A DNA stretch of 37,480 nt, taken from NCBI GenBank assembly GCA_019313245.1, contig JAFDBP010000219.1, positions 1 through 37,480 on the forward strand, read 5' to 3'. The position numbers and the translations under genes were made by a program. The notes beneath the pieces were generated by a model, which worked only from the letters and a program-made list of their open reading frames with translations, did not search any database and was not told the origin of the DNA. Shown piece after piece: positions 4,118-26,280 of the stretch (the first letter of the stretch is position 1; the number at the start of each line of letters is the position of its first letter). The stretch comes from Deltaproteobacteria bacterium. GTDB taxonomy: Bacteria; Myxococcota_A; UBA9160; SMWR01.

Positions 4118-4383
4118 TTCAGCCTCGGCAATTGCTAGGGCGCCAATTCTGGATTCGCGCCATACAGCTGGGTGGGTAGGGGGTGAGTGGCCACCCGCCG
4201 TCCGTCGTGTCGAAAATTCTAGTTGATCCCCCACGGGGATTCCGCGGGTGCTCAACCGGGAGTTGCACCGGTCCTCCAGTCGCTCTGATCGAGGGAACGG
4301 GTCCTTCTGGCCAGGGCCGCCTCGGCGGTCCGCATGACCGACCGGGACTCTGAGCGCGCTCCTTTCGGCCCGAAGGGGCGCAA
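4118..4383 (-). other. Long untranslated leader of the EF-G gene
   Basis: About 260 bases separate the predicted EF-G promoter from its start codon. The segment has no convincing gene on either strand. It contains GC-rich self-complementary patches (for example around 4365-4380 and 4317-4340 read on the minus strand) but I could not match it to a known riboswitch or leader. Together with the hairpin element at 4446-4614 and the promoter of the secreted protein it fills the 686-base gap 4118-4803. Confidence 0.35.
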
Positions 4384-4410
4384 ATTTTAGCCATTCCTGG
4401 GAAATGTCAA
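4384..4410 (-). promoter_or_regulatory. Candidate sigma70 promoter for EF-G
   Basis: Read on the minus strand there is a consensus -35, TTGACA (4410-4405), then 15 bases, then TAAAAT (4389-4384). The hexamers are excellent for such a GC-rich sequence, although the spacer is 2 bases shorter than ideal. It points toward EF-G and gives a leader of about 260 bases. It lies 35 bases from the nearby hairpin element. Confidence 0.55.
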
Positions 4411-4445
4411 GTCCGCTGCGGTGAACGGGTTTTGCTTGCTGAGCC

Positions 4446-4614
4446 GTCGAGCAGCCGGACGCGGGGAGGTCCCTCCGCGAATGGCTCGCCCGCCTGGAGT
4501 GGATCGGTGGTTTGAGGCGGTTTCGGGCACACAGCTGCGTTTCCGGTGAGCGGGGATCGGAGGCGGGCTGCGCTTTATTTCGCTGCGGGACCTCCCCGCG
4601 TCCGGCTTCTCGAC
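4446..4614 (-). repeat. Hairpin-ended repeat element, copy A (inverted relative to copy B)
   Basis: A 113-base core (4474-4586) is closed by perfectly complementary 21-base arms, 4453-4473 and 4587-4607. After one mismatch (4452/4608) six more bases pair, 4446-4451 with 4609-4614, so the stem is about 28 bp. Read on the minus strand the core matches that of copy B (5795-5905) at nearly nine bases in ten, with a 2-base length difference, including an internal GCCCGCC/GGCGGGC pair. The arms share only the inner GGTCCC/GGGACC with copy B; further out the sequences differ but remain self-complementary. The copy lies in the divergent gap between EF-G and the secreted protein gene. It has no coding potential. 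Its nature (structured RNA, miniature inverted-repeat element or recombination site) is unknown. Confidence 0.85.
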
Positions 4615-4743
4615 TCCGCCACCTGGGTGTCGGGCGGCCCGGGTCCGCCCCGATGTGGCGGTTGGCAGTGAAGGGGTTGCTCGGACTTCGGCAATCGCGT
4701 AATGAGCGCGTTTGCGCAGATGCTCCGCAGTCGCAAAAAGCGA

Positions 4744-4773
4744 TTGACCTTTCTATGCGTACCAGCACATACT
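4744..4773 (+). promoter_or_regulatory. Candidate promoter for the secreted protein gene
   Basis: TTGACC at 4744-4749 is followed after 18 bases by CATACT (4768-4773), a fair sigma70 pair. Transcription from about 4780 would give a 24-base leader carrying the strong ribosome-binding site TTGGAGGA just before the ATG at 4804. The -10 is weak, so this is tentative. Confidence 0.4.
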
Positions 4774-4803
4774 CGAAATCTAAATGCCTGAGTTGGAGGA
4801 AGC

Positions 4804-5715
4804 ATGAGATCGAGGGTGATTGCGGCGGCGCTGGGTAGTGCGGTGGCTCTCGTGGGGTTTGCGAATCCGGCCCATGCCAGCGCCACGATCGACCTGATCT
4901 GGGCGGACACCGGCACGAATCAGCTCGGCAGCGTGAGTTCATCCGCAGCCATCACGCTGCGGGTGATCCTGACCGCGGGACCCAACGGATCACAGGGCGC
5001 TACCGTCAGCGTCGACTACAGCGAAGCGTTGAGCGCGCTTTCAGTGCTCGAATACGTGAGCACGCCGAGCGGCCCGCTGCCGCTCTTAGTCAGTGCGATG
5101 ACCGACACCGGATCGCGGATCGAGAACTTCAACTCCGCCTCGTCCCCGCCCTTCGTGGGCACCGGCCTGGTGGCAGGTCAAAGCCACCAGCTCGGAACGG
5201 TCACTTTCCACAAGAACGAGATCGCCGATGGCCGGTGGGAAATTCGGTCAGACGCCAACAGCTCAAGGGACTTCGTCCTGGACCTCGACGGCAACGACAT
5301 CACTGCGACGACCACCTTCAACAGCGCGTTTCTGGGCGAACAGGCTCCGTGTCGCTGCGACTTCGCGATCCAGATCAACGCGCTTCGCGGAGGTTCGCCC
5401 ACGGTGACCGTGGGCTCGACGAAGGACATCACCGCCAAGGCCCGCATCGCGAAGGGGTCGGCCCTGCCCGATACGAAGGTCGATGCTGCGCTGCGCATCG
5501 ACGCCATCGACGGAACCGAGGTCATCGACTCGCAGTCTTCGAGCCCGATCCAGCTCGAAGTCGGCAAGGGCGGCAACGGCGACAAGCTCACGATGAACAT
5601 CGACCAGTGCAACTCGGGATCCATCGACTTCGAGGCGACTTTCTTCGTTCCCGAGCCAACCTGCAGCAACAACCCCTGCACTGCGACGAGATCGATCCGC
5701 AAGGCCTGTCAATAG
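4804..5715 (+). CDS. Secreted protein of unknown function
   Basis: A 303-residue exported protein. Residues 1-25 form a signal peptide: basic start (M-R-S-R), hydrophobic Ala/Val/Leu core and an A-H-A cleavage site before Ser26. The mature part is rich in Thr, Ser, Val and Gly with short alternating hydrophobic strands, as in beta-sandwich extracellular domains; the first ~150 residues faintly recall cohesin-like or PEP-CTERM-associated secreted proteins, but I do not recognise a family and there is no PEP-CTERM tail. Cys are confined to the second half and the tail (C-R-C-D-F, C-N-S-G, C-S-N-N-P-C, A-C-Q), suggesting disulphides. The start has TTGGAGGA directly upstream. A GAAA-tetraloop hairpin (GTCGC-GAAA-GCGAC, 5715-5728) begins at the last base of the stop codon. 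The gene is bracketed by the two inverted hairpin elements, and no partner gene is adjacent. Confidence 0.8.
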
Positions 5716-5771
5716 TCGCGAAAGCGACCTCGGCGCCCGCGACAAATCAACCCGAGCAAAGTGCTCGCGGT

Positions 5772-5928
5772 GCTTCGGGGCCGGCCGTGGTCCCGCAGCG
5801 AAATAAAGCGCAGCCCGCCTCCGATTCCGGCTCAGCCGAAACGCGGCTGTCTGCCAGAAACCGCCTCGAACCACCGATCCAGTTGGCGGGCGAGCCATTC
5901 GCGAAGGGACCACGGCCGGCCCCGAAGC
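5772..5928 (+). repeat. Hairpin-ended repeat element, copy B
   Basis: Perfect 23-base complementary arms, 5772-5794 and 5906-5928, enclose a 111-base core (5795-5905). The core matches copy A in inverted orientation: both begin GCAGCGAAATAAAGCGCAGC and end near GAGCCATTCGCG. An internal 7-bp pairing, GCCCGCC (5813-5819) with GGCGGGC (5885-5891), is conserved in both copies. The arms are G/C-rich palindromes whose outer part differs from copy A. It sits between convergent genes: 56 bases after the secreted-protein stop and 23 bases before the acyltransferase stop. A further small hairpin, CGAGC-AAAGT-GCTCG (5753-5767), lies just upstream. It has no U-tract and is not a standard terminator, though it could block transcription from both sides. 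Confidence 0.85.
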
Positions 5929-5951
5929 TCCACTCCACCGATCAGCGGCTG

Positions 5952-6602
5952 TCAGCGTGTGGTGGAGCGATCGCCGATGCTGCCGCGCGGTCTGGCGGGC
6001 TGACCGTAGGCGAGCGTGTGAGGGGGGATGTCGCGGGTCACGAGGGAGCGCGTGCCGATCACGCTGTGCTCGCCGATCGTCACGCCGCGCAGGATGGTCA
6101 CGTCCGCCGCCACCCAGACGCAGTCGCCGATCGTCACGGGTCGGGTGACTTCGGGGTGTTCGGAGTCGAGGTCGTGTTGGTCCGAGTCGAAGACGCGGCT
6201 GCCGCTGCCGATCCAGGCGCGGCGGCCGCAGCGCAGCTCGGACTTCGCGCTCAGCTGACAGCCGTTCAGGAAGCTCTCGGGCCCCAGTTCGATCCGCGCG
6301 CCCTCGAACGCGACGATGTGCACCGGTGCGATCTCGGTCCGCAGCCAAGTGCCTTCGCCGATCGACACCTCGGCCCCGGCGCCGAGCGAGAAGTGCAGCG
6401 CGCCCGCGAGGCGTTCGGTCACGACACCGGCGCCGATCCGCAGCCGCGCGCCTGCGGCGAGGTCGTAGCGCGCCGCGGCGAGATTGCTGGACGCGGCCGG
6501 ATGGATTTCGAGTCCTCGATGCCGCGCCATCAAACGCCGCAAGCGAAACCGATCGTAGGCCTGGAGGGTCTTGAGCTGGAGGCGGATGCCCGGGCCGGGC
6601 AC
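5952..6602 (-). CDS. Left-handed beta-helix (hexapeptide repeat) acyltransferase
   Basis: A 216-residue protein of the WbbJ/maltose O-acetyltransferase kind, which moves an acetyl or other acyl group from CoA to a sugar or similar acceptor in the cytosol. The hexapeptide coils run from about residue 60 to 200 with typical I-G-x-x-x and V-x-I-G-D-x-V-W-V-A-A-D spacing; the S-D-Q-H-D segment around residue 140 holds the His that acts as catalytic base in the family. A C-terminal G-Q-P-A-R-P matches the usual end of the fold. The start is a GTG at 6602, four bases after the infA stop, so it is probably translated from the infA message; a start further downstream is possible because the first 30 residues are poorly conserved-looking. 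Acceptor unknown. Confidence 0.8.
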   Translation of the reverse strand: MPGPGIRLQLKTLQAYDRFRLRRLMARHRGLEIHPAASSNLAAARYDLAAGARLRIGAGVVTERLAGALHFSLGAGAEVSIGEGTWLRTEIAPVHIVAFEGARIELGPESFLNGCQLSAKSELRCGRRAWIGSGSRVFDSDQHDLDSEHPEVTRPVTIGDCVWVAADVTILRGVTIGEHSVIGTRSLVTRDIPPHTLAYGQPARPRGSIGDRSTTR

Positions 6603-8536: not shown

Positions 8537-10942
8537 TCAACCGGTCGGTGGGAATTGGAGGGGCGTCCCGGGCGTCGGCTCGGCTTGGGGTGTGGGCGCC
8601 GAGGACTCGAGTGTCGACTTCCCCTGCGGTTTGGGCGCCGTCGACTCGAGTGTCGACTTCCCCTGCGGTTTGGGCGCCGTCGGCTCGAGTGCCGGCTTCC
8701 CCTGCGCTGCGGGCGCCGTCGGCTCGAGTGCCGGCTTCCCCTGCGCTGCGGGCGCCGTCGACTCGGACGCGGGGGGCGGCTCGATCGATTCGGGTGCCTC
8801 GAGCGCCCCCCAACCGAAGACGTCGCGCGCCAACGACCAGCGGCGCTCCTGGCCGGGCGGCTCCCTGCCCTCGAACCAGTAGCTGAACAGGCGCGGAATC
8901 GTGCGGTCGTTGCGCTTCAGCAGAATCCAGGCGTCGATGAATTCGGCCATGCGCCGATCGTCGCGCGCGCTGGCGTAGCCCACGGGCACGCGCAGCACCT
9001 CCGGATGGGGAACCGCCACCGTGTATTCGGGATAGATGAGGGTCCAGGCCGAGCCCACCTCGGCGGCAAAGACCATCGCGTCGAAGGTCCCCTCCTCGGC
9101 GCGAAAGAACGCGCGCGGCGAATCGATCAGGGTGATCTGCGCCTCCGGCAGGTACTCCCGGATCTTCTCCGCGTAGTAGCCGCGCTCGGGAACCGCGAGT
9201 TCCAGCGACGGAATCGATCGAATCGACTTGCCGGAGCGGAATCGGTCCCGGTGATGGTCGCGGACGACGAAGGCCAGCGTCTCGTGGAGATAGGGAGTCG
9301 AGAAGTTCATCTGCTCGAGGCGCTCGGGCGTGATGGTCAGCCCGGTCATCGCCAAGTCGATCGTTCCCGCATTGAGCAGCGCGGGAAACCGACTCGTATC
9401 GCCGACGCGGAAGAATTCGACGCGCACGCCGAGATCGCGCGCCAGGGCGTGGGCCATCTCGATGTCGAAACCGACCAGTTCGCCCGGCGCGTTTCGGAAC
9501 GCGTAGGGCAGCCGGTCCGGCGCGTAACCGACGCGCAGGCTGCCCCGCGCGCGCACGCGCCGGAGTGCGTCCCCCGGGCTCTGGGGGGCCTCGGCGGGCA
9601 GCGCATCGCGGTCTCGCCAGGGCGCGGTGGGCAGCAGGAAGGATCGCTGGATGAAAGAGCGGTACCCCGTGAAGGGACTGTCGAAGCGCTGAAATCCGAT
9701 CCGAACGACATTCAGGACTCCGGCGGTTGCGACGATGGAGATCAGAATCCACAGCGCGAAGCGCCGCAGTTCGAAGCGGATCCAGGCCGCGGCGCCGCAG
9801 CCCGCGAGCAGGGCGAGCGCGATCGCGTGCATCGACCCGACCAATGCGCTGAAGCGATTGCCGATCACGCTGTCGACGACGAGAAAGAGTTCGAACATGT
9901 CGGACGGAATGCGGAAGAGATCGAGCAGGAAGGGCAGCGAGACCGCGGAACCCGCGAAGGACGAAAACAGCCCGGTTCCCGCGAGCGCGGGATAGTCGAC
10001 CGGGGAGAGGGGATGCCCCGATTGCCAGCCCGCGTAGAGAACGAACAACAGCCCCAACAGCTTTCCCGCCCCCGCCAGGGTAAAGGCGATCGGAACCACC
10101 ACGTCGACCTGGAGTTCGGCTTCCTCGCCGGCCTCGCGCTGCTCGAAGAGCTTCCGCGCGCGGTCGGCGATGATCGGGAGCACGATGAAGAGACTGCCCG
10201 TGGCGAAGGCGGTGACCAGCGCGTCGCGGCCCGCGGCGAACACCTCGCGGTACGAGAGCGGCGTGGCGGCGGCGACCAGCGCCGGGAGCACCCAGAAGGC
10301 CAGCAGCAACGCCAACGCGATATAGGTGACCAGATAGACCTGGAGGCCGGCGAGCCGCGCGACGTCGAGACTCCCGGCGGCCTCGGCTGCGATGGCGAAG
10401 ATCCCGTACGGGGCGATGTGTACCACGGCACTCGTCATCCGGCGCAGCGCGTCCTGTGCACCCAAAAATGTGTCGAGCAGCGTGCGCTTGCGCTCGCTGT
10501 CCATCAGCGCGATCCCGAACGCCAGGCTGAACACGACGACGGCCGGAACGGCACCCTCGGAGAGCGAGCGAAACGGATTCGCCGGGATGTAGAAGTCGAG
10601 AAAGTCGAGTTCGGCGCGCTCTTCCACCAGGGTGGCACTGAACAGGGTGCCGGAGGGCCAGCCCGGGAAGGCGATGGGCGCGGCGATGACGACGGCGAGC
10701 GTCGCAACCCAGGACAGCAGCAGAAAACCGCCCGCATAGCGCACGAGCGACCGCCAGCCGCGGCTGCTCAGCCCGCCCAGACCGGCGATCAGCGAGACCG
10801 CCACGAACGGGAGCACCGCCATCTGAAGCAGCAGCAGGTACGCGCGGCCGAACGCGCCCACGAAAGCAACCGACTCGCCGAACACGATGCCCAGAGCGAT
10901 GCCGAGCGCGAGGCCGACCAGCACCTTGGAGGCCAACGACAT
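8537..10942 (-). CDS. DAACS-type symporter fused to a family-3 solute-binding domain
   Basis: An 801-residue membrane protein with three parts. Residues 1-385 are a dicarboxylate/amino-acid:cation symporter (GltP/DctA type) with about eight membrane segments; the hairpin loops are recognisable at 246-258 (A-T-G-S-L-F-I-V-L-P) and 326-340. The canonical N-M-D-G-T sodium/substrate motif is replaced by T-L-A-G-A-G (288-293). Residues 396-414 form an extra membrane helix that would carry the following part to the periplasm. Residues 460-695 are a family-3 extracellular solute-binding domain (L-R-V-G-Y-A-P-D start, G-F-D-I-E-M-A, L-T-I-T-P-E-R). Residues 730-782 are 13-residue Pro/Ala/Gly/Lys repeats. 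Family-3 binding domains normally serve ABC importers, so a tether to a secondary transporter is unusual. An amino or organic acid substrate is likely. Start ATG at 10942; the aspartoacylase-like gene diverges. Confidence 0.88.
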   Translation of the reverse strand: MSLASKVLVGLALGIALGIVFGESVAFVGAFGRAYLLLLQMAVLPFVAVSLIAGLGGLSSRGWRSLVRYAGGFLLLSWVATLAVVIAAPIAFPGWPSGTLFSATLVEERAELDFLDFYIPANPFRSLSEGAVPAVVVFSLAFGIALMDSERKRTLLDTFLGAQDALRRMTSAVVHIAPYGIFAIAAEAAGSLDVARLAGLQVYLVTYIALALLLAFWVLPALVAAATPLSYREVFAAGRDALVTAFATGSLFIVLPIIADRARKLFEQREAGEEAELQVDVVVPIAFTLAGAGKLLGLLFVLYAGWQSGHPLSPVDYPALAGTGLFSSFAGSAVSLPFLLDLFRIPSDMFELFLVVDSVIGNRFSALVGSMHAIALALLAGCGAAAWIRFELRRFALWILISIVATAGVLNVVRIGFQRFDSPFTGYRSFIQRSFLLPTAPWRDRDALPAEAPQSPGDALRRVRARGSLRVGYAPDRLPYAFRNAPGELVGFDIEMAHALARDLGVRVEFFRVGDTSRFPALLNAGTIDLAMTGLTITPERLEQMNFSTPYLHETLAFVVRDHHRDRFRSGKSIRSIPSLELAVPERGYYAEKIREYLPEAQITLIDSPRAFFRAEEGTFDAMVFAAEVGSAWTLIYPEYTVAVPHPEVLRVPVGYASARDDRRMAEFIDAWILLKRNDRTIPRLFSYWFEGREPPGQERRWSLARDVFGWGALEAPESIEPPPASESTAPAAQGKPALEPTAPAAQGKPALEPTAPKPQGKSTLESTAPKPQGKSTLESSAPTPQAEPTPGTPLQFPPTG
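8598..8753. repeat. 39-bp tandem repeat, four copies
   Basis: Four head-to-tail 39-base units lie at 8598-8636, 8637-8675, 8676-8714 and 8715-8753, with a partial fifth after them. Units 1-2 and units 3-4 are near-identical pairs, suggesting two rounds of duplication. They encode the 13-residue repeat A-P-x-x-Q-G-K-x-x-L-E-x-T at the C-terminus of the symporter fusion; the reading frame is kept. Confidence 0.95.
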
Positions 10943-11061: not shown

Positions 11062-12204
11062 ATGACGGGGGGTGTTACGACTCGGCGCGCCTTCGCGGCT
11101 GGCGTTTGCGCGCTCGCCGCGCTCGGCAGTGCCTTGCCCGGACCCGCGGCCGAGACGGTGCAAGAGCGCTGGGAAGGATTGCCGCTACTGGACGTCGTGG
11201 TCAGGCCGGGCGAGAGCCGGCGCGCCACCCTGGCTGTGAGCGAGTCCTTCGTGGGAGCGGTGCTCGACACGCCCGTGCTCGTCGTGCGCGGGATGCACCC
11301 CGGCCCGACCTTGTGCCTCACCGCGGGCATTCACGGCGACGAACTCAACGGCGTCGAGATCGTGCGGCGCACGCTCCAGCGACTGAATGCGCAGGAATTG
11401 CGCGGCACCGTGATCGGCGTCCCGATCGTCAACCTCCACGGCTTCCGCCGCTCGTCCCGCTACCTTCCCGACCGCCGGGATCTCAATCGCTACTTCCCCG
11501 GCCGCTCTCGCGGCAGCTCGGCGTCGCGCATCGCGTACTCATTCTTCGAGAGTGTGATCCGTTCGTGCGACAACCTCGTCGATCTGCACACGGGATCCTT
11601 TCATCGGACCAACCTTCCCCACCTGCGGGCGAACCTCGAAATACCGGAGACACTCGAGCTCGCGCGGGGCTTCGGCAGCACCATCGTCGTCCACAGTTTC
11701 GGCACGCAGGGGACCCTGCGTCGGGCGGCAACCGATGCGGGGATTCCCGCGATCACCTACGAGGCGGGCGAGCCGATGCGCTTCGTGCAGAGCGACGTCG
11801 AACGCGGCCTGGAGGGAATCCGTGACTTGATGGGTGCGATCGGTATGCTGAAGCCGCGCCGACGAGCTCGCGAGCCCCAGGTCTTCAACCGGTCGCACTG
11901 GGTGCGGTCCGACGACGGCGGCATCCTGATCTCGCAGGTCGAGCTGGGCGAGCGGGTCGAAATCGGCGCGTTGCTGGGCACCGTCACCGATCCGCTGTCG
12001 AACGAGAAATCGGAGCTGCGCGCCCCACACTTGGGTACCGTGATCGGAATGGCCCTGAACCAGGTCGTGATGCCGGGATTCGCCGCATTCCACCTCGGAA
12101 TTCGCGTGGGAGAAGACCCCCCTCTGCCACAGCCGGACGAGGACTGGGCGATCGAGGCGGTGGAAGATACGGCGATGGAAAACGACGAGCGGCCCGAGGA
12201 GTAG
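11062..12204 (+). CDS. Succinylglutamate desuccinylase/aspartoacylase family deacylase with a Tat-like signal
   Basis: A 380-residue zinc carboxypeptidase-fold enzyme of the AstE/aspartoacylase family, which removes acyl groups from amino acids or cuts amide-linked conjugates. Zinc ligands are H91 and E94 (G-I-H-G-D-E) and H175 (D-L-H-T-G-S); the catalytic Glu is E233 (T-Y-E-A-G). The N-terminus T-R-R-A-F-A (residues 7-12) followed by a hydrophobic stretch and a P-A-A site fits a twin-arginine signal, so it would act in the periplasm. The C-terminal third carries a beta-barrel-like domain as in AstE relatives. It is the first gene of a tight four-gene operon; the next start is 7 bases after its stop. 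The partner ATP-grasp makes amide bonds, so this enzyme may process or reverse its product. Substrate unknown. Confidence 0.85.
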   Translation: MTGGVTTRRAFAAGVCALAALGSALPGPAAETVQERWEGLPLLDVVVRPGESRRATLAVSESFVGAVLDTPVLVVRGMHPGPTLCLTAGIHGDELNGVEIVRRTLQRLNAQELRGTVIGVPIVNLHGFRRSSRYLPDRRDLNRYFPGRSRGSSASRIAYSFFESVIRSCDNLVDLHTGSFHRTNLPHLRANLEIPETLELARGFGSTIVVHSFGTQGTLRRAATDAGIPAITYEAGEPMRFVQSDVERGLEGIRDLMGAIGMLKPRRRAREPQVFNRSHWVRSDDGGILISQVELGERVEIGALLGTVTDPLSNEKSELRAPHLGTVIGMALNQVVMPGFAAFHLGIRVGEDPPLPQPDEDWAIEAVEDTAMENDERPEE

Positions 12205-12211
12205 CGCGCCC

Positions 12212-13789
12212 GTGTCTCGACCGGTCCTGTTCACCGGAATCGCCCTGCTGCTGTTCGCCATCGGCGTGGTCGGGTGGAAGGCGCTGATTCTGGACCTCCC
12301 ACTCGCGCCCTCTGGCGCCAAGGGTCTCTGGCGCGTCGAGCTCGAAGTGAGCGCGCGGGGGACCGGCCGCCGCGGAAGCGTCCGCGTTCCGCTTCCGAGC
12401 CTGGGTCCCGGTCAGGCGGTCTTCGACGAGCGGATCCAGAGCGACCGGCTGCTGTTCGCGATTCGCAACGAAGACGGCCAGCGATTCGCGATCTGGAGCG
12501 GGCGCTTCGAGGGCGTGCACGAACTCGCACACGGCTTCCGCGTGCAGCTCGATCCGTCGCGCGCCCCAGTGACCGGAGGCAACGCCGCCGCGCCTTCGGG
12601 CATCGTCGAGCGCTACGGCCCGCGCGCGAGCGAGATTCCCGCGGACGACACCACGATCCCGCAGCTGTTCGAGCGCATTTCGCTGCCCCCGGCCAGCGAT
12701 CCGGAGGGGCGGCTGCGCTCACTCTTCTCTTTCGTGGCCGATGAAGTGGCAACCCGCGATACCGCCTCCGATGACGCCATCCTGACGCTCGCCGCGCGGG
12801 AAGGCAGCCAGGTGGGCAAGACCCGCAGCCTCGTGATGCTGTTGCGAGGCGCGGGGATTCCGGCGCGCGTGGTGCTCGGCCTGAAGCTGCAGACCGGAAC
12901 GCCGCCCGAGGAGGTCGTCTGGGCGCAGGCCTGGCTCGGCGGGGTCTGGGTGCCGTTGTCGCCGGTGGAAGGTTTCTTCGGCGAGAGGCCCGCCGATCGG
13001 GTCGCGCTGCGCTTCGGATCGGATCAGGCGATCGAAACGAGTGGTGTCGAGGCCGTCGGACGGCGCTATCACGCTCTGCGCGAGCAGCTGCGACCGGAAG
13101 AACTCACCGCGCTGATGGTTCCCAACAGCGATCTGCTGGCGGCGTTGTCGCTGTACCGCCTGCCGCTGCCGACGCAGTCGGCGCTGCGCGGCCTGTTGTT
13201 GCTCCCCATCGGAGCGCTGATCGTCGCCTTGTTTCGCAACATCATCGGCGTCCCGACCTTCGGAACCTTCATGCCGATCCTGATCGCCTTCGCGCTGCGC
13301 AGTTATCCGCTGGCCCCCGGCCTGCTGCTCGTCGGCTCCGTGCTGTGTGTGGGCATCTTCGGGCGCCTCGCGTTCGAGCGGCTGCACCTGCTGCTGGTGC
13401 CGCGCCTCTCGCTGCTGCTGTGCATCGTGGTGCTGCTCGTGACGGGCGCAGCGATCGTCGGACGCGGGAGCAACATACACAACCTGCTCGCCGGCGTGCT
13501 GTTCCCGCTGGTGATCCTCACGATGTTGATCGAGCGCTTCGCGGTCACGCTTTCGGAGGAAGGTTGGCGCAGCGCACTGGAGCGGGCTGGCTGGTCGATT
13601 GCGGTTGCGATCGTCGTACACCCGGTCTTCCGCAGCGCCTCGGCACAGCAGCTGATGTTCGGCTATCCGGAGCTGGTCGTCGGCATCTCCGGATTGCTGA
13701 TCCTGATCGGCGGTTACACGGGATTTCGCGTTTCCGATCTGATCCGCTTCCGCGCCTTCGCCCGCTTCGGAGCGAGAGCTTCGCGGTGA
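12212..13789 (+). CDS. Degenerate transglutaminase fused to seven transmembrane helices
   Basis: A 525-residue inner-membrane protein of the family annotated as inactive transglutaminase fused to 7 TM helices. One N-terminal helix (residues 3-25) is followed by a large extracytoplasmic region; residues ~170-260 form a transglutaminase-like fold (R-G-A-G-I-P-A-R-V-V-L-G-L) in which the catalytic Cys position reads G-S-Q-V-G-K-T, hence probably no catalysis. From about residue 325 come seven hydrophobic segments with the family landmark R-N-I-I-G-V-P-T-F-G-T-F-M-P. GTG start at 12212. Its stop overlaps the next start (GTGA). The family is nearly always found beside a RimK-related ligase, and it may bind peptides outside and signal or pass them inward. 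That role is inference. Confidence 0.85.
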   Translation: MSRPVLFTGIALLLFAIGVVGWKALILDLPLAPSGAKGLWRVELEVSARGTGRRGSVRVPLPSLGPGQAVFDERIQSDRLLFAIRNEDGQRFAIWSGRFEGVHELAHGFRVQLDPSRAPVTGGNAAAPSGIVERYGPRASEIPADDTTIPQLFERISLPPASDPEGRLRSLFSFVADEVATRDTASDDAILTLAAREGSQVGKTRSLVMLLRGAGIPARVVLGLKLQTGTPPEEVVWAQAWLGGVWVPLSPVEGFFGERPADRVALRFGSDQAIETSGVEAVGRRYHALREQLRPEELTALMVPNSDLLAALSLYRLPLPTQSALRGLLLLPIGALIVALFRNIIGVPTFGTFMPILIAFALRSYPLAPGLLLVGSVLCVGIFGRLAFERLHLLLVPRLSLLLCIVVLLVTGAAIVGRGSNIHNLLAGVLFPLVILTMLIERFAVTLSEEGWRSALERAGWSIAVAIVVHPVFRSASAQQLMFGYPELVVGISGLLILIGGYTGFRVSDLIRFRAFARFGARASR

Positions 13790-14730
13790 AGGTGCTCAAC
13801 GCACTCCGGAGCAACGGCGTGCTCGGCATCAACGGGCGCAACGCCGCCTACACGCTCCGCTGGAATCCGCGGCGGCTTTATCCCATGGTCGACGACAAGC
13901 TGCGCACCAAGCGGCTCTGCGAAGAGGCTGGGATTCCCGTCCCGCGCCTCATCGCCTACGCCGGACACCACTTCGAGATCAAGCGGATGCTCGGCGCGCT
14001 GGAGGGACTCGACGACTTCGTGCTCAAGCCGGCCCGAGGCGCGATGGGCAACGGCATCATCGTCATCCACGCGAGGGAGGGCGACGCGTTCCTGCGCCCG
14101 GGCGGCCGGCGCGTCAGCCTGGACGACCTGCGCTACCACGCGGGGAGCATCATCTCGGGGCTCTACGCTCTGGGCGGTCACGCCGACGCGGCAATGCTCG
14201 AGGAACGCCTCGTCGCGCATCCCATCCTGGCCGCGATTTCGGAGGAGGGCGCGCCGGACGTGCGGATCGTCGTGTTTCGCGGCATTCCCGTGATGGCCAT
14301 GACGCGGCTGCCGACGCGCCGCTCGAGCGGCCGCGCCAATCTCCATCAGGGGGCGGTCGGGGCGGGGGTCGGGCTTTCGAGCGGCCGAATCGAACATGCG
14401 ATGGTCACCTACACTCCGGTGGAACGGCATCCCGACAGCGACCGCCCGCTCATCGGCGTGGAGATCCCGGGGTTTTCGCGCGCGCTGGAGATCGCCGTTC
14501 GCGCGACCGACGAAACCGGGCTCGGCTACGTCGGAGCCGACGTCGTGATCGATGCGCGGCTCGGCCCCGTGATCCTGGAGCTCAATGCGCGACCGGGGCT
14601 CGCGATCCAGGTGGCCAATCAGGCGGGTCTGCTGCCTCGGCTGCGCGCCGTCGAGGAAGACTTCCGTCCCGGATTGTCGGTCGAGGAGCGCATCGAAATG
14701 GGACGCCAGATCGAGAGGAGAGCGCCATGA
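13786..14730 (+). CDS. Alpha-L-glutamate ligase-like (RimK-related) ATP-grasp protein
   Basis: A 314-residue cytosolic ATP-grasp ligase that activates a carboxylate with ATP and joins it to an amine, as RimK adds glutamate. It matches the RimK-related group: L-G-I-N-G-R-N start, P-M-V-D-D-K-L-R-T-K (34-43), ATP-binding K81 in F-V-L-K-P-A-R-G-A-M-G-N-G, the Y-H-A-G-S-I-I-S-G-L-Y segment, V-M-A-M-T-R-L-P-T-R-R-S, and the Mg-binding end E-L-N-A-R-P-G-L near residue 270. The start is GTG at 13786, overlapping the previous stop by 4 bases; a longer open frame upstream is the shadow of the 7TM gene. Its stop overlaps the next gene as ATGA. The amino acid added and the acceptor are unknown; a peptide, a glycan-linked amine or a free metabolite are all open. 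Confidence 0.9.
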   Translation: MKVLNALRSNGVLGINGRNAAYTLRWNPRRLYPMVDDKLRTKRLCEEAGIPVPRLIAYAGHHFEIKRMLGALEGLDDFVLKPARGAMGNGIIVIHAREGDAFLRPGGRRVSLDDLRYHAGSIISGLYALGGHADAAMLEERLVAHPILAAISEEGAPDVRIVVFRGIPVMAMTRLPTRRSSGRANLHQGAVGAGVGLSSGRIEHAMVTYTPVERHPDSDRPLIGVEIPGFSRALEIAVRATDETGLGYVGADVVIDARLGPVILELNARPGLAIQVANQAGLLPRLRAVEEDFRPGLSVEERIEMGRQIERRAP

Positions 14731-15983
14731 TCGATCGCAAGCACCGCGCTGTCCGCGCATTGGTGTGCGTCTGCGCCACACTGACTGCAGGAGCGGCGCT
14801 GGCGCAGGACGATCTCGTCTACCGGGTCGACTTCGAAGTTCGCGTGGTTCCGACCGAGCGCGCCGCTCGCGTCAATGTGCACGTAACGGATCCAAAAGGT
14901 CTGCTGCGGCAGGTGAACTGGCGCATCGATCCCGAGCGCCACCGCGACTTCGCGGGCGGCGGAACCGTCGAGGTCGAGGGCGACGTGGTGCGCTGGATCC
15001 CCGAACCCGGCGTGACGACGCTGCGGTACGTGTTTCGCATCGATCACCTGCGCGACGAGCGAAGCTACGACGCGCGCTGCGCCGAGAACTGGGCCATCTT
15101 TCGCGGTGACGACCTGGTTCCCCCCGCGAAGGTTCGCACCGCGCTGGGAGCGCGCTCGGCCTCCCACCTCTACCTGCGCGTGCCGGACGGCTGGTCGGCC
15201 GTCGCACCGTACGAGCGGGCGGCTGACTCGTCCTTCCGGATCGACAATCCCCACCGCGGATTCGACCGACCGACGGGCTGGCTCGCGGTCGGCCGACTCG
15301 GCATCCTTCGGGAGACGGTCGCGGGCTCCCGAATCGCCGTTGCGGGGCCGAAGGGCCAGCGCCTGCAGCGCCTCGACATTCTGGCGCTGCTGCGCTGGAC
15401 GCTGCCCACGGTTCGCGACATGGTCGGCGAGTTGCCCGATCGGCTGCTGGTAGTCACCGCGAGAGATCCGATGTGGCGCGGGGGCCTGAGCGGACCGCGC
15501 TCCGCGTTCGTCCACGCGTCGCGCCCGCTCATCAGCGACGACGGGACGAGCCCGGTGCTCCACGAACTGGTGCACGCCGCGTTGGGATTCGAGCCCGGCG
15601 ACGGCGGCGACTGGATCGTCGAGGGCCTCGCCGAGCTGTACTCGCTGGAGGCCCTCGTCCGCTCGCGCACGATCTCGCGCAAGAGACAGGAAAAAGTGTT
15701 ATCCCGGATGAAGCAGCGCGCCAAAGCGGTCCCCTCGCTGGAGGTGGCTTCGGCCCGGGGAGAGATCACCGACCGCGCGGTCATCGCACTTCGCGCGCTC
15801 GATGCCGAGATCCGCGAGCACACACAGGACCAGCGCAGTCTCGAGGACGCCGTGCGCGTCTTGTCGGAATCGCGCCTGGACATCACGACGGCCCAGCTGA
15901 AGAACGCCGCCGAACAGGTGAGCGGAGCGGATCTGTCCGGCTTCTTCCGACAACACGTGGGTGAGGCTCGCCCGGGCCGCTGA
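14727..15983 (+). CDS. Exported HExxH metallopeptidase-like protein
   Basis: A 418-residue protein with a signal peptide (residues 1-26, ending A-L-A-Q). H-E-L-V-H at residues 279-283 is a zincin motif, and about 24 residues later D-W-I-V-E-G-L-A-E-L-Y supplies the downstream Glu ligand typical of gluzincins. The arrangement, with an N-terminal beta-rich region before the catalytic helix, resembles M61 glycyl-aminopeptidase-like proteins. It would be periplasmic or cell-surface. ATG at 14727 overlaps the ATP-grasp stop (ATGA), so translation is coupled. Other operons of this ligase commonly carry a different, aspartic-protease-like partner; here the place is taken by this zincin. Substrate unknown. 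Confidence 0.8.
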   Translation: MIDRKHRAVRALVCVCATLTAGAALAQDDLVYRVDFEVRVVPTERAARVNVHVTDPKGLLRQVNWRIDPERHRDFAGGGTVEVEGDVVRWIPEPGVTTLRYVFRIDHLRDERSYDARCAENWAIFRGDDLVPPAKVRTALGARSASHLYLRVPDGWSAVAPYERAADSSFRIDNPHRGFDRPTGWLAVGRLGILRETVAGSRIAVAGPKGQRLQRLDILALLRWTLPTVRDMVGELPDRLLVVTARDPMWRGGLSGPRSAFVHASRPLISDDGTSPVLHELVHAALGFEPGDGGDWIVEGLAELYSLEALVRSRTISRKRQEKVLSRMKQRAKAVPSLEVASARGEITDRAVIALRALDAEIREHTQDQRSLEDAVRVLSESRLDITTAQLKNAAEQVSGADLSGFFRQHVGEARPGR

Positions 15984-18339: not shown

Positions 18340-19647
18340 CTACAGCGCGCTCGCGAGAAGTGTCGCGATGCCGAGGAAGCTGAAGAACCCGACCACATCG
18401 GTGACGGTGGTGAGAACGATCGAGGACGACTGCGCCGGGTCCTGGCGGAGCGCCGTCAGGATCATCGGAATCGCAGCGCCCGAAAGGCCCGCGAGCGTCA
18501 TCGAGAGCACCATCGAGATGCCGATCACGCAGGCGAGCCCGACCGATTGGCTCCAGAGGTACACGGCCACCGAGGTCGTCAGGGCGACCGCGACGCCGTT
18601 TCCCGCGCCCGCCACGACTTCCTTGCTGACCACGCGAAGCCAATGACGCGTTCGCACCTCGCGCAGCGCGAGTCCGCGCATCGTGACCGCGAGCGCCTGG
18701 GCCCCGGTATTGCCCGACTGACCCGCGACGACGGGAAGCAGCACGGCGAGCGCGGTCACGCGCGCGATCGTGTCCTCGAACAGCCCGACCACGGCCGCCG
18801 CGAGGAATGCGGTCAGCAGGTTGATCTGGAGCCACGGCAGGCGCTTGCGGATCGCGAATAGCGGCGTCGACAACGCTCGCTCCTGCTCGCTCGCACCGAC
18901 CATCGTCACGGCGCTCGCCGTGGCCTCCGCCTGGGCGGCCTGGATGATCTCGCGCTGGCGCAGCACGCCGAGCAGTCGACCGTCCAGGTCCACCACGGGC
19001 AGGCTCGCCACCCGGTGGCTCTCGAAGGTCTGGACGACTTCGTCGCGCGATGCGACGGACGCGACACTCACTGGCGCGGCGCTCACGAGTCCATCGAGGC
19101 GTGTCGATGGCTCGGCCAGGGCGATCTTCTCGAGCGGAATGCTCCCCGTGAGCACGCCATCTGCGTTTACGGTGAAGACGTCCTGAATCCGCCGATCGCG
19201 AAAAGTCCGCAGACGTCGCAACACGTCGCGAACCGTCGCGTCGGGTCGGAACGACGTCGCTCGCGGGTCCATCAATCCGCCCGCCGTGTCGGCCGCGTAG
19301 TGCGCAATGTCGCGGAGCTCGGCCGCGAGGTCGTCGTCGAGCCGAGCGAAACAGCGCTCTCTCTCGTCGGGGTCGAGCCGGGCCAACAGCGAAGCCGCTC
19401 GGTTCGGGTTGAGCGCCGCGACCGAGCGCCGCATGACGTCCTCGGGAAGTGCGGCGAGAATCCGCGCGGCTCGGTCCGGCGTGAGCCGCCGGATGACCCC
19501 CATGACCGCGTCGCCGCCGTGGCGGGCCAGCAGCTCGGCCGACTCCGCGTCCGCGCTGGACTCGACCAATCGAACCGCCTCGTCGGGATACTCCTCGAGC
19601 ATGACCTGGGCGAGCGCCTGTTCTGCCTGTCCGGACCTTCGCGCCAT
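18340..19647 (-). CDS. mgtE: Magnesium transporter MgtE
   Basis: A 435-residue magnesium channel. Residues ~1-125 are the helical MgtE_N superhelix (repeats such as L-T-P-D-R-A-A-R-I-L-A-A-L-P), then G-G-L-M-D-P leads into a pair of CBS domains (~135-250), a plug helix, and a membrane domain of five helices from ~280. The pore signature V-A-G-Q-S-G-N-T-G-A-Q is intact, and the Asp-containing A-L-R-Q-D-P-A-Q lies in the last part. In known MgtE, magnesium bound between MgtE_N and CBS closes the pore. It is the last gene of the minus-strand run; its ATG is one base after the stop of the soluble MgtE_N-CBS gene, so the two are translationally coupled. Confidence 0.93.
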   Translation of the reverse strand: MARRSGQAEQALAQVMLEEYPDEAVRLVESSADAESAELLARHGGDAVMGVIRRLTPDRAARILAALPEDVMRRSVAALNPNRAASLLARLDPDERERCFARLDDDLAAELRDIAHYAADTAGGLMDPRATSFRPDATVRDVLRRLRTFRDRRIQDVFTVNADGVLTGSIPLEKIALAEPSTRLDGLVSAAPVSVASVASRDEVVQTFESHRVASLPVVDLDGRLLGVLRQREIIQAAQAEATASAVTMVGASEQERALSTPLFAIRKRLPWLQINLLTAFLAAAVVGLFEDTIARVTALAVLLPVVAGQSGNTGAQALAVTMRGLALREVRTRHWLRVVSKEVVAGAGNGVAVALTTSVAVYLWSQSVGLACVIGISMVLSMTLAGLSGAAIPMILTALRQDPAQSSSIVLTTVTDVVGFFSFLGIATLLASAL

Positions 19648-19648
19648 C

Positions 19649-20479
19649 TCAGCCCCCCCCGCTCCTCGGTGGGCCGAAACTCGTGAGCGCGTCGAGAAGA
19701 CCTCCCGCCCCCGCGGAGAAGAGCTGGCCGAGGGACTCGCGGACGTCGCCGTCCTCGGTCCGACCGCGCTGCATCTCTTCCTCGAGCGCGCGCAGCGTTC
19801 GATAGCGCACGGCGCCGAGGTAGCCGCCCCCCTCGTCCACGACGGGCAGCGAGTGAACCTCCTTCCAACCCGGGTGCGTCACGATGACCGATCGGTCTGC
19901 ATGCGCGTCTAGCCGCAGAGGATCGCGGACCATCAGATCCGCCAGGCGGGACTGGGGCTTCGCGAGCAGCAGCTCTCGTAGGTTCACGGCTCCCGCGAGT
20001 CGCTGCTCGCTGTCGACCACGTAGACGTTGTATCGCGCGCTTTCCGGTGTCTTGCGAATCTGTTGCAGGGCTTCCCGCGCCGTAAGGTCGCTCGGCAGTG
20101 CGAGAACGTTCGGATCCATCAGCGACCCCGCGGTGTTTTCGCGAAAATGCAGCAGTGCGCGCAGCGCGCGAGACGAACGAGGGCCGAGTTTCTCGAGGGC
20201 GGCTTCCGCGCACTCCGCCGGCAGGCGCCGGGTCAGGCGCGAGGCGACGTCGAGCGGCAGCGCTTCGAGTACACTCGCGAGTTTCGCTGCGTCGAAGCTC
20301 TCGAGAACCGCGGCCGAAAACTGCGGCGGCATCCGCCGAAGTACGGGAGCCGCGGTACTCGCCGGTGCCTTGGCGAGTACGTGCGCCGCCTGCTCGACTC
20401 CGAGCCGCGAGAGCACACCCGCAGCGCGCTCCGGATGTTCGCGCACCAGTTCCTCGGCAAGGCTTCGCTCCAGACTCAT
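19649..20479 (-). CDS. Soluble MgtE_N-CBS protein without a membrane domain
   Basis: A 276-residue cytosolic protein made only of the regulatory half of MgtE: helical repeats at residues ~5-115 (for example R-M-P-P-Q-F-S-A-A-V-L), a G-S-L-M-D-P linker, and two CBS domains up to ~235, then a short Gly-rich tail. There is no hydrophobic helix. It resembles the N-terminal half of the MgtE encoded next and directly precedes it with a 1-base gap. A heteromeric gate or a separate nucleotide/magnesium sensor for MgtE is a reasonable inference. The start ATG at 20479 follows a GGAGG-like site and lies 40 bases after the MscS stop. A frameshift remnant of a second full MgtE is unlikely because the reading frame ends cleanly at the next start. 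Confidence 0.82.
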   Translation of the reverse strand: MSLERSLAEELVREHPERAAGVLSRLGVEQAAHVLAKAPASTAAPVLRRMPPQFSAAVLESFDAAKLASVLEALPLDVASRLTRRLPAECAEAALEKLGPRSSRALRALLHFRENTAGSLMDPNVLALPSDLTAREALQQIRKTPESARYNVYVVDSEQRLAGAVNLRELLLAKPQSRLADLMVRDPLRLDAHADRSVIVTHPGWKEVHSLPVVDEGGGYLGAVRYRTLRALEEEMQRGRTEDGDVRESLGQLFSAGAGGLLDALTSFGPPRSGGG

Positions 20480-21362: not shown

Positions 21363-22346
21363 CTATTCAAGCATCCTTCGCTCCAGCGCGCTGACGACCG
21401 CTTCACTGAAATCCACCTTCTCGAAGAGCTGTGCACTTCCCAGGCCGCCAGGGCTGAAGACGTTGATCTCCATGAGCTTCTCCCCGGCGATGTCGAGACC
21501 GGCCAGAAACATTCCATCCTCGGCGAGTTTCGGCCCGACGGTCTCGGCCAACCGCAACATGGTCTCGTCGACTTCCGCCCTTCGCAAACGGCCGCCCGCG
21601 TGGAGGTTGCTCCGAAGATCGTCGCCGGTCCGGATGCGGCGGAACGCCGCGAGATGACCCTCGTACTCCAGCGGCCGGCCTTCGAGCATGAACAGCCGCG
21701 TGTCTCCGTCTGCGGCTGCGGGAAGATACTCCTGCGCCACCACGTAGCCATCGCGCGACACGGCGCGGATGATCTCTGCGACGTTGGCGCGATCCTTCGG
21801 TCGCACGATGAAGACGCCTCGGCCCCCGTAACCCTGCAGGGGCTTGACCACGATCGTTCCCTGCTCGTCGGCGAATTCGCGAATTCGGTCGCGGTTGCGA
21901 GTGATGAGCGTGCGCGGCCTTACCGCCTGGGGGAACTCCTCGAGGTAGAGCTTGTTCATCGCGTTCGCGAGACCGTTCGGATCGTTGAGGACGACGACTC
22001 CACGGTTGGCGAGTATGCGGCCGAAGTGGAGCGGCGCGTGCTGGGCCCACGGCGTCTGCACGGCCGGGTTGCTTCGCAGCAGGACCAGGTCGAGTGCGTC
22101 CGCCTCGATCCAGCCAGACTTGGCCTGGCTGCGCAGCGCGGTCAGATAGGACTCTGCGGAGTCGTAGCTCGCGGGAGGCGCCGCCCGAGCATGAGCGAAT
22201 ACCCGACCGTCGGATTCGAGCGCGAAGCTACCCGCCGTCATCACCCAGACCTGATGGCCGCGTCGCAGCGCACTGACGGCGAGGCGGTAGGTCGTCTGCC
22301 CGCTCTCCTCCGTCCCGACGACGTTCACCGCGATGCCCAGCTTCAT
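21363..22346 (-). CDS. Glutathione synthetase-like ATP-grasp ligase, second copy
   Basis: A 327-residue ATP-grasp enzyme of the GshB-like group, cytosolic. It begins with a Rossmann-like N-domain (M-K-L-G-I-A-V-N), has N-D-P-N-G-L-A-N-A-M-N-K-L around 120-133, the glycine-rich ATP loop V-K-P-L-Q-G-Y-G-G-R-G-V-F, and the metal/ligand end L-M-E-I-N-V-F-S-P-G-G near 290. These match glutathione synthetase, but N-domain differences mean glutathione itself should not be assumed. It is clearly paralogous to the ATP-grasp encoded 138 bases upstream. The stop codon overlaps the ribosome-binding site of the MscS gene. Two ligases in series could build a tripeptide-like product or act as a heteromer. 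Confidence 0.87.
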   Translation of the reverse strand: MKLGIAVNVVGTEESGQTTYRLAVSALRRGHQVWVMTAGSFALESDGRVFAHARAAPPASYDSAESYLTALRSQAKSGWIEADALDLVLLRSNPAVQTPWAQHAPLHFGRILANRGVVVLNDPNGLANAMNKLYLEEFPQAVRPRTLITRNRDRIREFADEQGTIVVKPLQGYGGRGVFIVRPKDRANVAEIIRAVSRDGYVVAQEYLPAAADGDTRLFMLEGRPLEYEGHLAAFRRIRTGDDLRSNLHAGGRLRRAEVDETMLRLAETVGPKLAEDGMFLAGLDIAGEKLMEINVFSPGGLGSAQLFEKVDFSEAVVSALERRMLE

Positions 22347-22390
22347 CGCACACCTACTGCCCGTCGCGACGCGCGCGTGTAGAACGGCGC

Positions 22391-22404
22391 CAGATATGTA
22401 TCTG
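22391..22404. promoter_or_regulatory. Palindrome between the two ATP-grasp genes
   Basis: CAGATA-TG-TATCTG is a perfect inverted repeat with 6-base arms in the only sizeable gap (138 bases) of the minus-strand run, 45 bases before the second ATP-grasp start. The AT-rich centre stands out from its GC-rich surroundings and could be an operator or part of an internal promoter. No clear -35/-10 pair was found. Confidence 0.35.
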
Positions 22405-22484
22405 CGGTCCGGATCTTCAGTTCAGACGCCACTCATTCCGCTGACCTACCTGCGCACGGCGTTCGGGCAATCGGCCGACCGTGG

Positions 22485-23531
22485 CTACAGGGTCGCCATC
22501 TCCAGGTTGTCGAAGTTGCGGCGGTAGTACGACATGTAGTCGACCTTGCGCTCCAGCGCTTCGATCACCGCGTTCGCGAAGTTCACCTTCTCGAACCGCT
22601 GTGCGCTGCCCAGTCCGCCCGGGCTGAACACGTTGATTTCCATCAGCTTGTCGCCGACGATGTCGAGCCCGACGAGGAACATGCCGTCCTGGACGACCTT
22701 CGGGCGCACGATCTCCGCGATCCGCAGGTGCTGATCCGTGATGGTCGCCTCCCTGAGTTTGCCCCCGGCGTGAATGTTGCTGCGCATGTCGTCCCCCGTG
22801 CGCACGCGCCGGAACGCCGCGTACTTGCCGCGGTGGCGCAGCGGCTGACCATTCATCAGAAACAGGCGAGTGTCGCCCTCCTGTGCGGCGGGCAGGTACT
22901 CCTGCGCGATGACGTAGCCATCGCGGCTGACCGCGTCGACCATCTGGTTGAGATTCGATCCGTCGCCTTCGCGAACCAGGAAGACCCCCTGGCCTCCCGA
23001 TCCCTGCAGGGGCTTGAGCACGATGTTTCCGCCCTGCTCCTTCCAGAAGTCGCGGATCTCGTCGCGGTCGCGCGTGATCACCGTCCGCGGTCGGACCTCT
23101 TCCGGGTAGAGCTGGAAGTACATCTTGTTCATCGCCTTCGAGAGGCCGTTCGGGTCGTTCAGCACGATGAGCCCGCGCCGCATCGCGACGCGTCCGAAGA
23201 TGATGCCCGTCCCCTGGGCCCATGAGCGGTGGGCCAGGTCGGCCGACGGATCACTGCGCAACAGCAGGACGTCGAGTTCATCGACGCTGATGCGTTCGAG
23301 CTTCGCGCGGCGGCCCTTCAGATCGGCGATGTACGCATCCGAGGACTTGTATTGCGACTTCGGCGCGGACGTGGCGCGTGCCCGGATGGATTCGTCTTCA
23401 TCGTAGGCGAAGTCCCCGGCGCCGATCACCCAGGCTTCGTGGCCCCGATTGATAGCGGCCATCGCCAGACGCGTCGTCGTGTAGCCTGTTTCCTCGGTCT
23501 TGACGTCGTTGACCACGAATCCAATTCTCAT
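22485..23531 (-). CDS. Glutathione synthetase-like ATP-grasp ligase, first copy
   Basis: A 348-residue cytosolic ATP-grasp ligase, first of the tandem pair. N-terminal M-R-I-G-F-V-V-N-D, then N-D-P-N-G-L-S-K-A-M-N-K-M, ATP loop L-K-P-L-Q-G-S-G-G-Q-G-V-F, R-T-G-D-D-M-R-S-N shared with its sister, and the metal-binding end L-M-E-I-N-V-F-S-P-G-G. It has an extra ~20 C-terminal residues (Y-M-S-Y-Y-R-R-N-F) absent from the second copy. ATG at 23531 overlaps the stop of the QEGLA gene as ATGA, so it is translated in series with it. A longer open frame upstream is a shadow. In other genomes a single ligase of this type accompanies the QEGLA zincin and an N-formylglutamate amidohydrolase; two here is a local duplication. 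Confidence 0.88.
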   Translation of the reverse strand: MRIGFVVNDVKTEETGYTTTRLAMAAINRGHEAWVIGAGDFAYDEDESIRARATSAPKSQYKSSDAYIADLKGRRAKLERISVDELDVLLLRSDPSADLAHRSWAQGTGIIFGRVAMRRGLIVLNDPNGLSKAMNKMYFQLYPEEVRPRTVITRDRDEIRDFWKEQGGNIVLKPLQGSGGQGVFLVREGDGSNLNQMVDAVSRDGYVIAQEYLPAAQEGDTRLFLMNGQPLRHRGKYAAFRRVRTGDDMRSNIHAGGKLREATITDQHLRIAEIVRPKVVQDGMFLVGLDIVGDKLMEINVFSPGGLGSAQRFEKVNFANAVIEALERKVDYMSYYRRNFDNLEMATL

Positions 23532-25489: not shown

Positions 25490-26280
25490 GGGCGAGTTCC
25501 CAGTTTCTCCAGGGTCTCGAGCAGCCCCGGCAACGTCGATTCGAGGGCCCGCGGGATCGCCTCGAACTCCTCTGCGTCGACTTTGCCCGTCCACTCGTCC
25601 ATGAAGAACTTCTTGAACTCGATCGCGAGGCAGCAGCCCGAGCGCGGAAAGTTCTCGTGGATCCAGGCCGAAAGCCGGCCGCCCCGAAACTTCACGTTCT
25701 CCCGCACGTCGAGCTGTCGCCCGAGAAAATCGAACGCCACGAGATCGCCCATGAAGCGATCGACGAGCTGGCCCCAGCGGCTTCGATCCACAGTTCCGGT
25801 GCCGATGTTGACCTCCGGATTTTCAGCGGGATCGTCGGGCGGCTCGCCCGGCCCCTGGCGGCGGTGATTGTACGAGTGGAGATCGAGCACGACGAAGCAG
25901 CCGAAGCGGCGCTCCATCTCGCTGAAGACGCGGTGCGCCTCGGCGTAGAACGCGTCGTACTCTGCGAGCGACCGCTCGATCAGCTCCTCGGGCGGGTTCC
26001 GTTTCCAGATCTCGAGCCCCCAGGCATCTGCGGGCGTGCGGTAGACGGCCGTCTCGCGCGGACGATTCAGATCGACCTCGAAGCGCGACCGGTTCACGAC
26101 GAGCTGGGTCGTGACGACGCTCGCCACGATGCCCGTGTGGGGGTCCTCCTCGCGCAGGCGATCGGATCCCGAAAGGGCCATGATCTCGGCGACCTCCTTC
26201 CGCAGCGCGTGGCCATTGTGGATCGCCGTTGCCGCCAACGGCTCCTGGCCCTCCACGATTTCCGCAAATCGATCTCGCAT
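25486..26280 (-). CDS. N-formylglutamate amidohydrolase family protein
   Basis: A 264-residue cytosolic hydrolase of the N-formylglutamate amidohydrolase (HutG-like, carboxypeptidase-fold) family. Recognisable parts are A-I-H-N-G-H near the N-terminus, V-D-L-N-R-P-R-E near residue 80, and V-L-D-L-H-S-Y-N-H (~137-145), which hold the expected metal-binding and substrate-binding residues. ATG at 26280 has AGGAGGAG about 8 bases upstream; the frame remains open 27 bases further but without a better site. No hut genes are nearby, so histidine degradation is unlikely. With the QEGLA zincin and ATP-grasp ligases downstream it forms the known but biochemically undefined cluster. It probably cleaves an acyl-glutamate-like amide. 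It is divergent from the XRE regulator. Confidence 0.87.
   Translation of the reverse strand: MRDRFAEIVEGQEPLAATAIHNGHALRKEVAEIMALSGSDRLREEDPHTGIVASVVTTQLVVNRSRFEVDLNRPRETAVYRTPADAWGLEIWKRNPPEELIERSLAEYDAFYAEAHRVFSEMERRFGCFVVLDLHSYNHRRQGPGEPPDDPAENPEVNIGTGTVDRSRWGQLVDRFMGDLVAFDFLGRQLDVRENVKFRGGRLSAWIHENFPRSGCCLAIEFKKFFMDEWTGKVDAEEFEAIPRALESTLPGLLETLEKLGTRP

Follow-up and report, generated by a model that had tools for sequence, protein, structure and literature searches.

Flytrap domains fused to a membrane unit are familiar from the ABC importers GlnPQ and OpuA, in which they are joined to the permease and transport is primary and driven by ATP. Among elevator transporters the family studied best is DAACS/SDF/SLC1 (PF00375, TC 2.A.23), which comprises GltPh, GltTk, the EAATs, DctA, and SstT, and with them the glutamate transporters of humans. 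As for secondary transport dependent on a solute-binding protein (SBP), the authors who proposed TAXI-GltS in 2025 recognized TRAP and TTT as its only earlier examples (PMC12344293). TRAP transporters such as SiaPQM consist of DctM and DctQ, of a DASS-like fold, and soluble SBPs of the DctP or TAXI type, and work as monomeric elevators (PMC10774421, PMC8276074). In TAXI-GltS a TAXI binding domain is coupled or fused to the glutamate-type elevator carrier ESS/GltS; in the fused proteins, 14 of which are present in InterPro, mostly from Lachnospiraceae, the SBP is located N-terminally (PMC12344293).

The window analyzed here, a stretch of 37,480 nucleotides from a deltaproteobacterial assembly (contig JAFDBP010000219.1), carries a gene whose product combines a DAACS-type membrane domain with a family-3 SBP, hereafter called the SDF-SBP protein. 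Its features are as follows.

8537..10942, minus strand: whole fused SDF-SBP gene, an uninterrupted open reading frame of 801 codons plus stop, with full-length relatives
9788..10942, minus strand: SDF/DAACS (SLC1-fold) membrane domain, residues 1-385 (Pfam, Foldseek, hhalign)
10139..10252, minus strand: HP1 hairpin, residues 231-268 (AlphaFold model, profile alignment)
10064..10081, minus strand: TLAGAG (residues 288-293), the TM7 sequence aligned with the NMDGT motif (profile alignment)
9917..10003, minus strand: HP2 hairpin, residues 314-342 (AlphaFold model, hhalign)
9791..9901, minus strand: TM8, residues 348-384 (AlphaFold model, family residue counts)
9686..9769, minus strand: residues 392-419, the additional helix TM9, following a basic, predicted cytosolic turn (model, alignment)
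9569..9685, minus strand: predicted periplasmic linker, residues 420-458, poorly conserved (family alignment)
8867..9568, minus strand: family-3 solute-binding (Venus-flytrap) domain, residues 459-692 (Pfam SBP_bac_3, Foldseek)
8807..8845, minus strand: conserved C-terminal motif, residues 700-712, RWSIIRxVLxWV in the family (family alignment)
8589..8765, minus strand: 39-bp tandem repeat, 4.5 copies, in the tail (repeat detection, 92% match)

Pfam assigns residues 4-362 to SDF (E 1.8e-48, 165.9 bits against a curated cut-off of 27.9) and residues 469-691 to SBP_bac_3 (E 8e-26, far above the cut-off), not to a GltS (ESS) carrier with a TAXI SBP, and it finds no DctM/DctQ, DctP, or TAXI match in the protein. 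The AlphaFold model of the 801-residue protein, built from a 32-sequence family alignment (pLDDT 83, pTM 0.76), gives the order HP1 (231-268), broken TM7 (273-307), HP2 (314-342), TM8 (348-384), a helix (392-419), and the SBP domain (about 459-692). A first-pass annotation of the window had placed an SDF fold (1-385), an added helix (396-414), and a binding domain (460-695) in one chain, and the modelled boundaries lie close to these. The conserved protein ends near residue 712, and residues 713-801 form a lineage-specific tail outside the conserved part; the 39-bp repeat encodes its Pro/Ala-rich sequence and is absent from most relatives.

Compared with the systems above, the SDF-SBP protein has the fold and profile of the DAACS/SDF/SLC1 family, but it lacks the NMDGT motif, the Na+ and substrate residues, and the HP2 tip, and adds TM9 and the fused SBP. 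It resembles TAXI-GltS in joining a binding domain to a glutamate-type elevator carrier, whereas both the carrier and the SBP of TAXI-GltS are unrelated to its own parts, and its SBP_bac_3 domain is C-terminal. SBP-fed secondary transport by an elevator, as in TRAP, is the working proposed for it below, although its components and its presumably trimeric state differ from those of TRAP. GlnPQ and OpuA tether their flytraps to the membrane unit in the same way, yet the membrane fold is unrelated. Finally, its SBP domain is similar in fold and sequence to the family-3 SBPs of ABC importers and to cyclohexadienyl dehydratase (AncCDT-1, 5t0w), but an ABC partner is missing and the Asp161-type ligand residue is not conserved. 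TRAP had been named in the first-pass annotation as the main precedent for such transport; TTT and TAXI-GltS also pair an SBP with an elevator-type carrier (PMC12344293). The concept of an SBP-dependent elevator thus has precedents, while for a protein combining SDF with SBP_bac_3 no description was found in the open full-text literature. One member is labelled by NCBI (PGAP) as a "cation:dicarboxylase symporter family transporter", all NCBIfam equivalog models score far below their cut-offs with the SDF-SBP protein, and a search of a viral structure library with it gave nothing useful.

The same architecture, for which the first-pass annotation had suggested a search, recurs widely and is old, as judged from genome scans and trees. 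A scan of genome contigs yielded 33 loci. Of these, 32 align over both SDF and SBP, and in the majority a single open frame spans residues 1-711. Full-length relatives were found in six searched groups, among them Nitrospirota, cyanobacteria, Gammaproteobacteria, and Bacteroidia, so that the SDF-SBP protein is present in at least six taxa, and apparently far more widespread than the TAXI-GltS fusions. In a profile search of its own phylum, members, either full-length or cut by contig ends, were detected in 19 of 284 genomes and scored 700-940 bits when complete; below them, partial hits aside, only classical DAACS or free SBPs appeared, at 102 bits or less. The corresponding counts, each including the genome used as the centre of its group, are 6/274 for Gammaproteobacteria, 3/244 for the cyanobacterial phylum, 2/148 for Nitrospirota, and 2/247 for Bacteroidia. 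A member is also carried by the large plasmid of Pseudoalteromonas xiamenensis. The genome from which the window derives contains a second member, on contig C187 (a frame of 731 aa), and one classical DAACS.

A frameshift or a sequencing or assembly error joining two genes, a case named beforehand as fatal to the fusion, was rejected on the strength of these relatives: dozens of independent, unrelated genomes encode the same architecture in an open frame. Only the fragmented state of the window's assembly (308 contigs) speaks for such an error, the probability of which we regard as negligible. No unfused member of the SDF subfamily was found in samples of five groups comprising about 1,200 genomes, and three half-length SDF-side hits that were checked (in genomes G080, G022, and G245) all end at contig ends. 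The one true SDF-only piece found is a truncated copy in a cyanobacterial MAG (locus L008, 6625-7539), which encodes 304 aa from TM1 to HP1, is followed by stop codons, and lies directly upstream of an intact fusion. In a Nitrospirota-phylum genome (G937, C57:21977-24122) the coding sequence of a member changes frame near profile position 320 and contains one internal TAG, the result of either pseudogene decay or a sequence error. Some genomes carry several copies, the extreme being an alphaproteobacterial MAG with five matching places (copies or fragments). In one alphaproteobacterial MAG with five matching places two long ORFs lie near each other, at positions 428-2719 (764 aa) and 4302-6533 (744 aa) of locus L028; the second is a fused member, and the first, which belonged to the set of flanking genes whose scan produced a single SDF match, may be a second copy.

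In maximum-likelihood trees, whose comparators all come from the window's own phylum, which limits the clade test, a branch of 1.9 with UFBoot 100 divides the 43 fused SDF domains from the 12 classical DAACS, and one of 1.1, again with UFBoot 100, divides the 47 fused SBP domains from the 10 free SBPs. As the fused sequences of either half thus group to the exclusion of unfused homologues, a single old fusion event is likely. The distances of the SDF and SBP halves are also correlated (Mantel r 0.65, reached in 0 of 5000 permutations).

The membrane part retains the elements of the SLC1 fold, HP1, the interrupted TM7, HP2, and TM8, as seen in the model and by Foldseek. The best Foldseek matches are the "ancestral uncoupled aspartate transporter" structures 9bgy, 9bgz, and 9bh0 (TMt 0.78-0.83), followed by GltTk and GltPh, and in hhalign the family aligns with classical DAACS along 370 columns (probability 99.9%). 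These similarities would fit an ordinary Na+-coupled amino-acid symporter of the DAACS type to which a binding domain has been added, a reading that we nevertheless consider very improbable, as N310, D312, T92/S93, D405, R397, N401, and the GxPG tip of HP2 are all absent. According to the profile alignment, in which the register of TM8 could be off by about one residue, neither the Na+-site set (S/T92-93, N310, M/S311, D/E312, and D/E405 in the reference definition; PMC12668577) nor the set of substrate residues D394, R397, and N401 is kept in the SDF-SBP family. The N310 column holds Asn in 12 of 12 classical DAACS and Pro (residue 290 of the window protein) in 29 of 32 members, and the D394 column holds Asp in 8 of 32 members, the window protein not being one of them. 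HP2 has a tip six residues shorter than in classical DAACS, with GxPG among the residues lost (hhalign), and HP1 carries the family motif FATGx..IVLP in place of the classical F[S/T]TxSS.ATLP. The TLAGAG sequence (288-293) falls exactly on the NMDGT column, as had been noted from the sequence; F-P-x-x-G is, however, the norm of the family at this place, and the L-A-G-A-G of the window protein is an outlier among its own relatives. The H+-coupling signature described for DAACS, a hydrophobic residue at 92, L311, and N405 (PMC12668577), is not reproduced either: position 92 is hydrophobic, yet position 311 is mostly S, T, N, or D, and there is no conserved Asn at 405. The fixed or nearly fixed residues are others, namely Phe329 (32/32), Trp306 (31/32), and Arg363 (31/32), which sits about two residues off the R397 column, and in TM8 His372 is frequent (23/32). 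By predicted fold the membrane part can be considered a divergent SDF branch, though one without the residues by which coupled DAACS symporters are defined.

The distribution of conservation has changed as well. The family-wide ratio of conservation in the transport core to that in the rest of the protein is 0.87, against 1.49 in classical DAACS, and the highest conservation lies on the scaffold side, in TM2, TM4, and the TM3-TM4 periplasmic loop, whose mean identity is 0.51 against 0.26 in classical DAACS. In close pairs the core has a dN/dS of 0.10-0.21, that is, it is under purifying selection not clearly weaker than that on the rest of the protein, which indicates that it is not decaying. 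Divergence of the core from branch to branch, combined with constraint inside each branch, is the pattern to be expected if substrates differ.

The turn between TM8 and TM9 is short and variable. Two or more of its residues are basic in 31 of the 32 members, and in 29 of 32 it lacks acidic ones. By the positive-inside rule, such a basic, acid-free turn ahead of the hydrophobic TM9 (mean hydropathy 2.25) places the flytrap domain in the periplasm. For this domain Foldseek finds AncCDT-1 (5t0w, TMt 0.87) and other family-3 binding proteins. In amino-acid SBPs we take Arg77 of LAO to be the residue that holds the carboxylate and Asp161 the one that holds the amine. The carboxylate-Arg column is Arg541 in the window protein and is Arg in 23 of 32 members, being absent from the other nine, whereas the amine-Asp column is Ala626 and, with S, T, A, L, M, or V among the members listed, Asp is not conserved there. 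Glu628 is invariant, His498 and Trp633 are nearly so, and all three are specific to the family. Because the pocket Arg is common, the amine Asp is not conserved, and Glu628 is invariant, the ligand is probably either an organic acid or an amino acid bound in another manner, and may well vary from branch to branch. Cyclohexadienyl dehydratase activity of the domain was considered and rejected: the column of the catalytic residue, presumably Glu173 of that enzyme, is Val629 here and varies in the family.

The reading we prefer, with a probability of roughly one half, is that the SDF-SBP protein unites in a single polypeptide an elevator carrier, devoid of the canonical Na+ sites, and the binding protein that feeds it. 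Its SLC1-type domain would assemble, like those of its relatives, into a trimer whose scaffold supports moving transport domains, TM9 would bring the C-terminus to the periplasm, as the turn charges support, and up to three Venus-flytrap domains would be tethered above the trimer. Each flytrap would catch a scarce, probably carboxylate-bearing solute and deliver it to the substrate site in its remodelled form; the flytrap would likely dock on the conserved periplasmic loop between TM3 and TM4. With the three canonical Na+ sites absent, coupling would not run through them; the drive could come from H+ coupling via other residues, or from the solute gradient combined with the affinity of the binding protein. 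In favour of the carrier are the fixed fusion, every intact member found being fused, its probable single origin with both halves co-diverging, the periplasmic topology of the SBP, the SLC1 fold kept under purifying selection, the raised identity of the TM3-TM4 loop, and TAXI-GltS and TRAP as precedents for SBP-dependent elevators (PMC12344293, PMC10774421). The numbers of copies or fragments, up to five per genome, and the varied SBP pockets are as in nutrient carriers. Against it stand the loss of the canonical substrate and ion residues, the SBP pocket with its unconserved Asp and an Arg that nine members lack, and the lowered core-to-rest ratio, which would suit a scaffold-centred role too.

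Two other readings compete with the carrier. In the first, the SLC1 domain would move no solute and would relay flytrap closure conformationally to a partner encoded elsewhere, as a receptor or co-sensor; DctA acts as a co-sensor with DcuS/DctB. The lost Na+ and substrate residues, the shift of conservation away from the core, and the conserved C-terminal motif after the SBP agree with it, yet the protein has no cytoplasmic domain, only the short and variable TM8-TM9 turn, the core is constrained in close pairs, and no conserved kinase, cyclase, or chemoreceptor neighbour was seen in the neighbour scan of its relatives; we hold this reading to be unlikely. In the second, the SBP would gate the SLC1 anion pathway between scaffold and transport domain, so that the protein would act as a channel or uniporter opened by its flytrap. 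SLC1 proteins are well known to conduct anions in an uncoupled manner, and both the lost coupling sites and the top conservation on the scaffold side would suit such gating; however, no pore is apparent in the sequence, prokaryotic DAACS offer no precedent, and the core is under purifying selection, so that this gating is rather improbable. Scarcely more probable is its general form, a trimeric SLC1 fold devoid of ion-coupled symport and driven or gated by three tethered flytraps, as uniporter or anion channel; if true, a gated SLC1 trimer would be a prokaryotic parallel to ionotropic glutamate receptors on an elevator scaffold. The first-pass annotation had left the choice between a new way of feeding a secondary carrier and a receptor. 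Selection on the core, the numbers of paralogues, and the lack of a cytoplasmic output module or conserved partner gene incline us to the carrier, though the sequence leans that way without settling the choice.

Should the SDF-SBP protein work as an SBP-fed carrier, it would join the SBP-dependent elevators. The authors of the TAXI-GltS study proposed that something in the elevator mechanism permits the use of an SBP, an idea that further classes would test (PMC12344293), and a widespread SBP-tethered branch of SLC1 makes it directly testable. The loss of the Na+ sites also provides a naturally occurring test case for how an elevator is driven when it no longer has ion coupling, the same question that was raised by the reconstructed uncoupled ancestor of the DAACS/SLC1 family (PMC12668577).

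Arranged head to head with the SDF-SBP gene are four consecutive genes on the plus strand (window 11062-15983), encoding an AspA-like deacylase, a 7TM-transglutaminase (RloB-like) protein, a RimK-like ligase (TIGR02291), and a 418-aa protein for which there is no Pfam, NCBIfam, or PDB match. In the 65% identical relative L001/L076 the same four genes (L001 3095-7898) lead directly into the fusion in one direction. The run was not seen in the other relatives, among them the closer L080, whose short contig extends 2.8 kb on that side and contains no AspA there. As the neighbour scan of about 30 relatives revealed no recurrent partner gene, the neighbourhood was dropped as a clue to the substrate. 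RloB and RloC have been tied to osmotic stress in Pseudomonas (PMC12239564), which gives no substrate for the SDF-SBP protein either. Two further loci of the window are worth mentioning. At 18340-20479, on the minus strand, a full MgtE adjoins a same-strand protein with MgtE_N and CBS domains only. At 21363-25594, also on the minus strand, a MATCAP-family (tyrosine carboxypeptidase-like) protein is encoded near a glutathione-synthetase-like ATP-grasp enzyme, and the two could possibly form a peptide ligase/carboxypeptidase pair.
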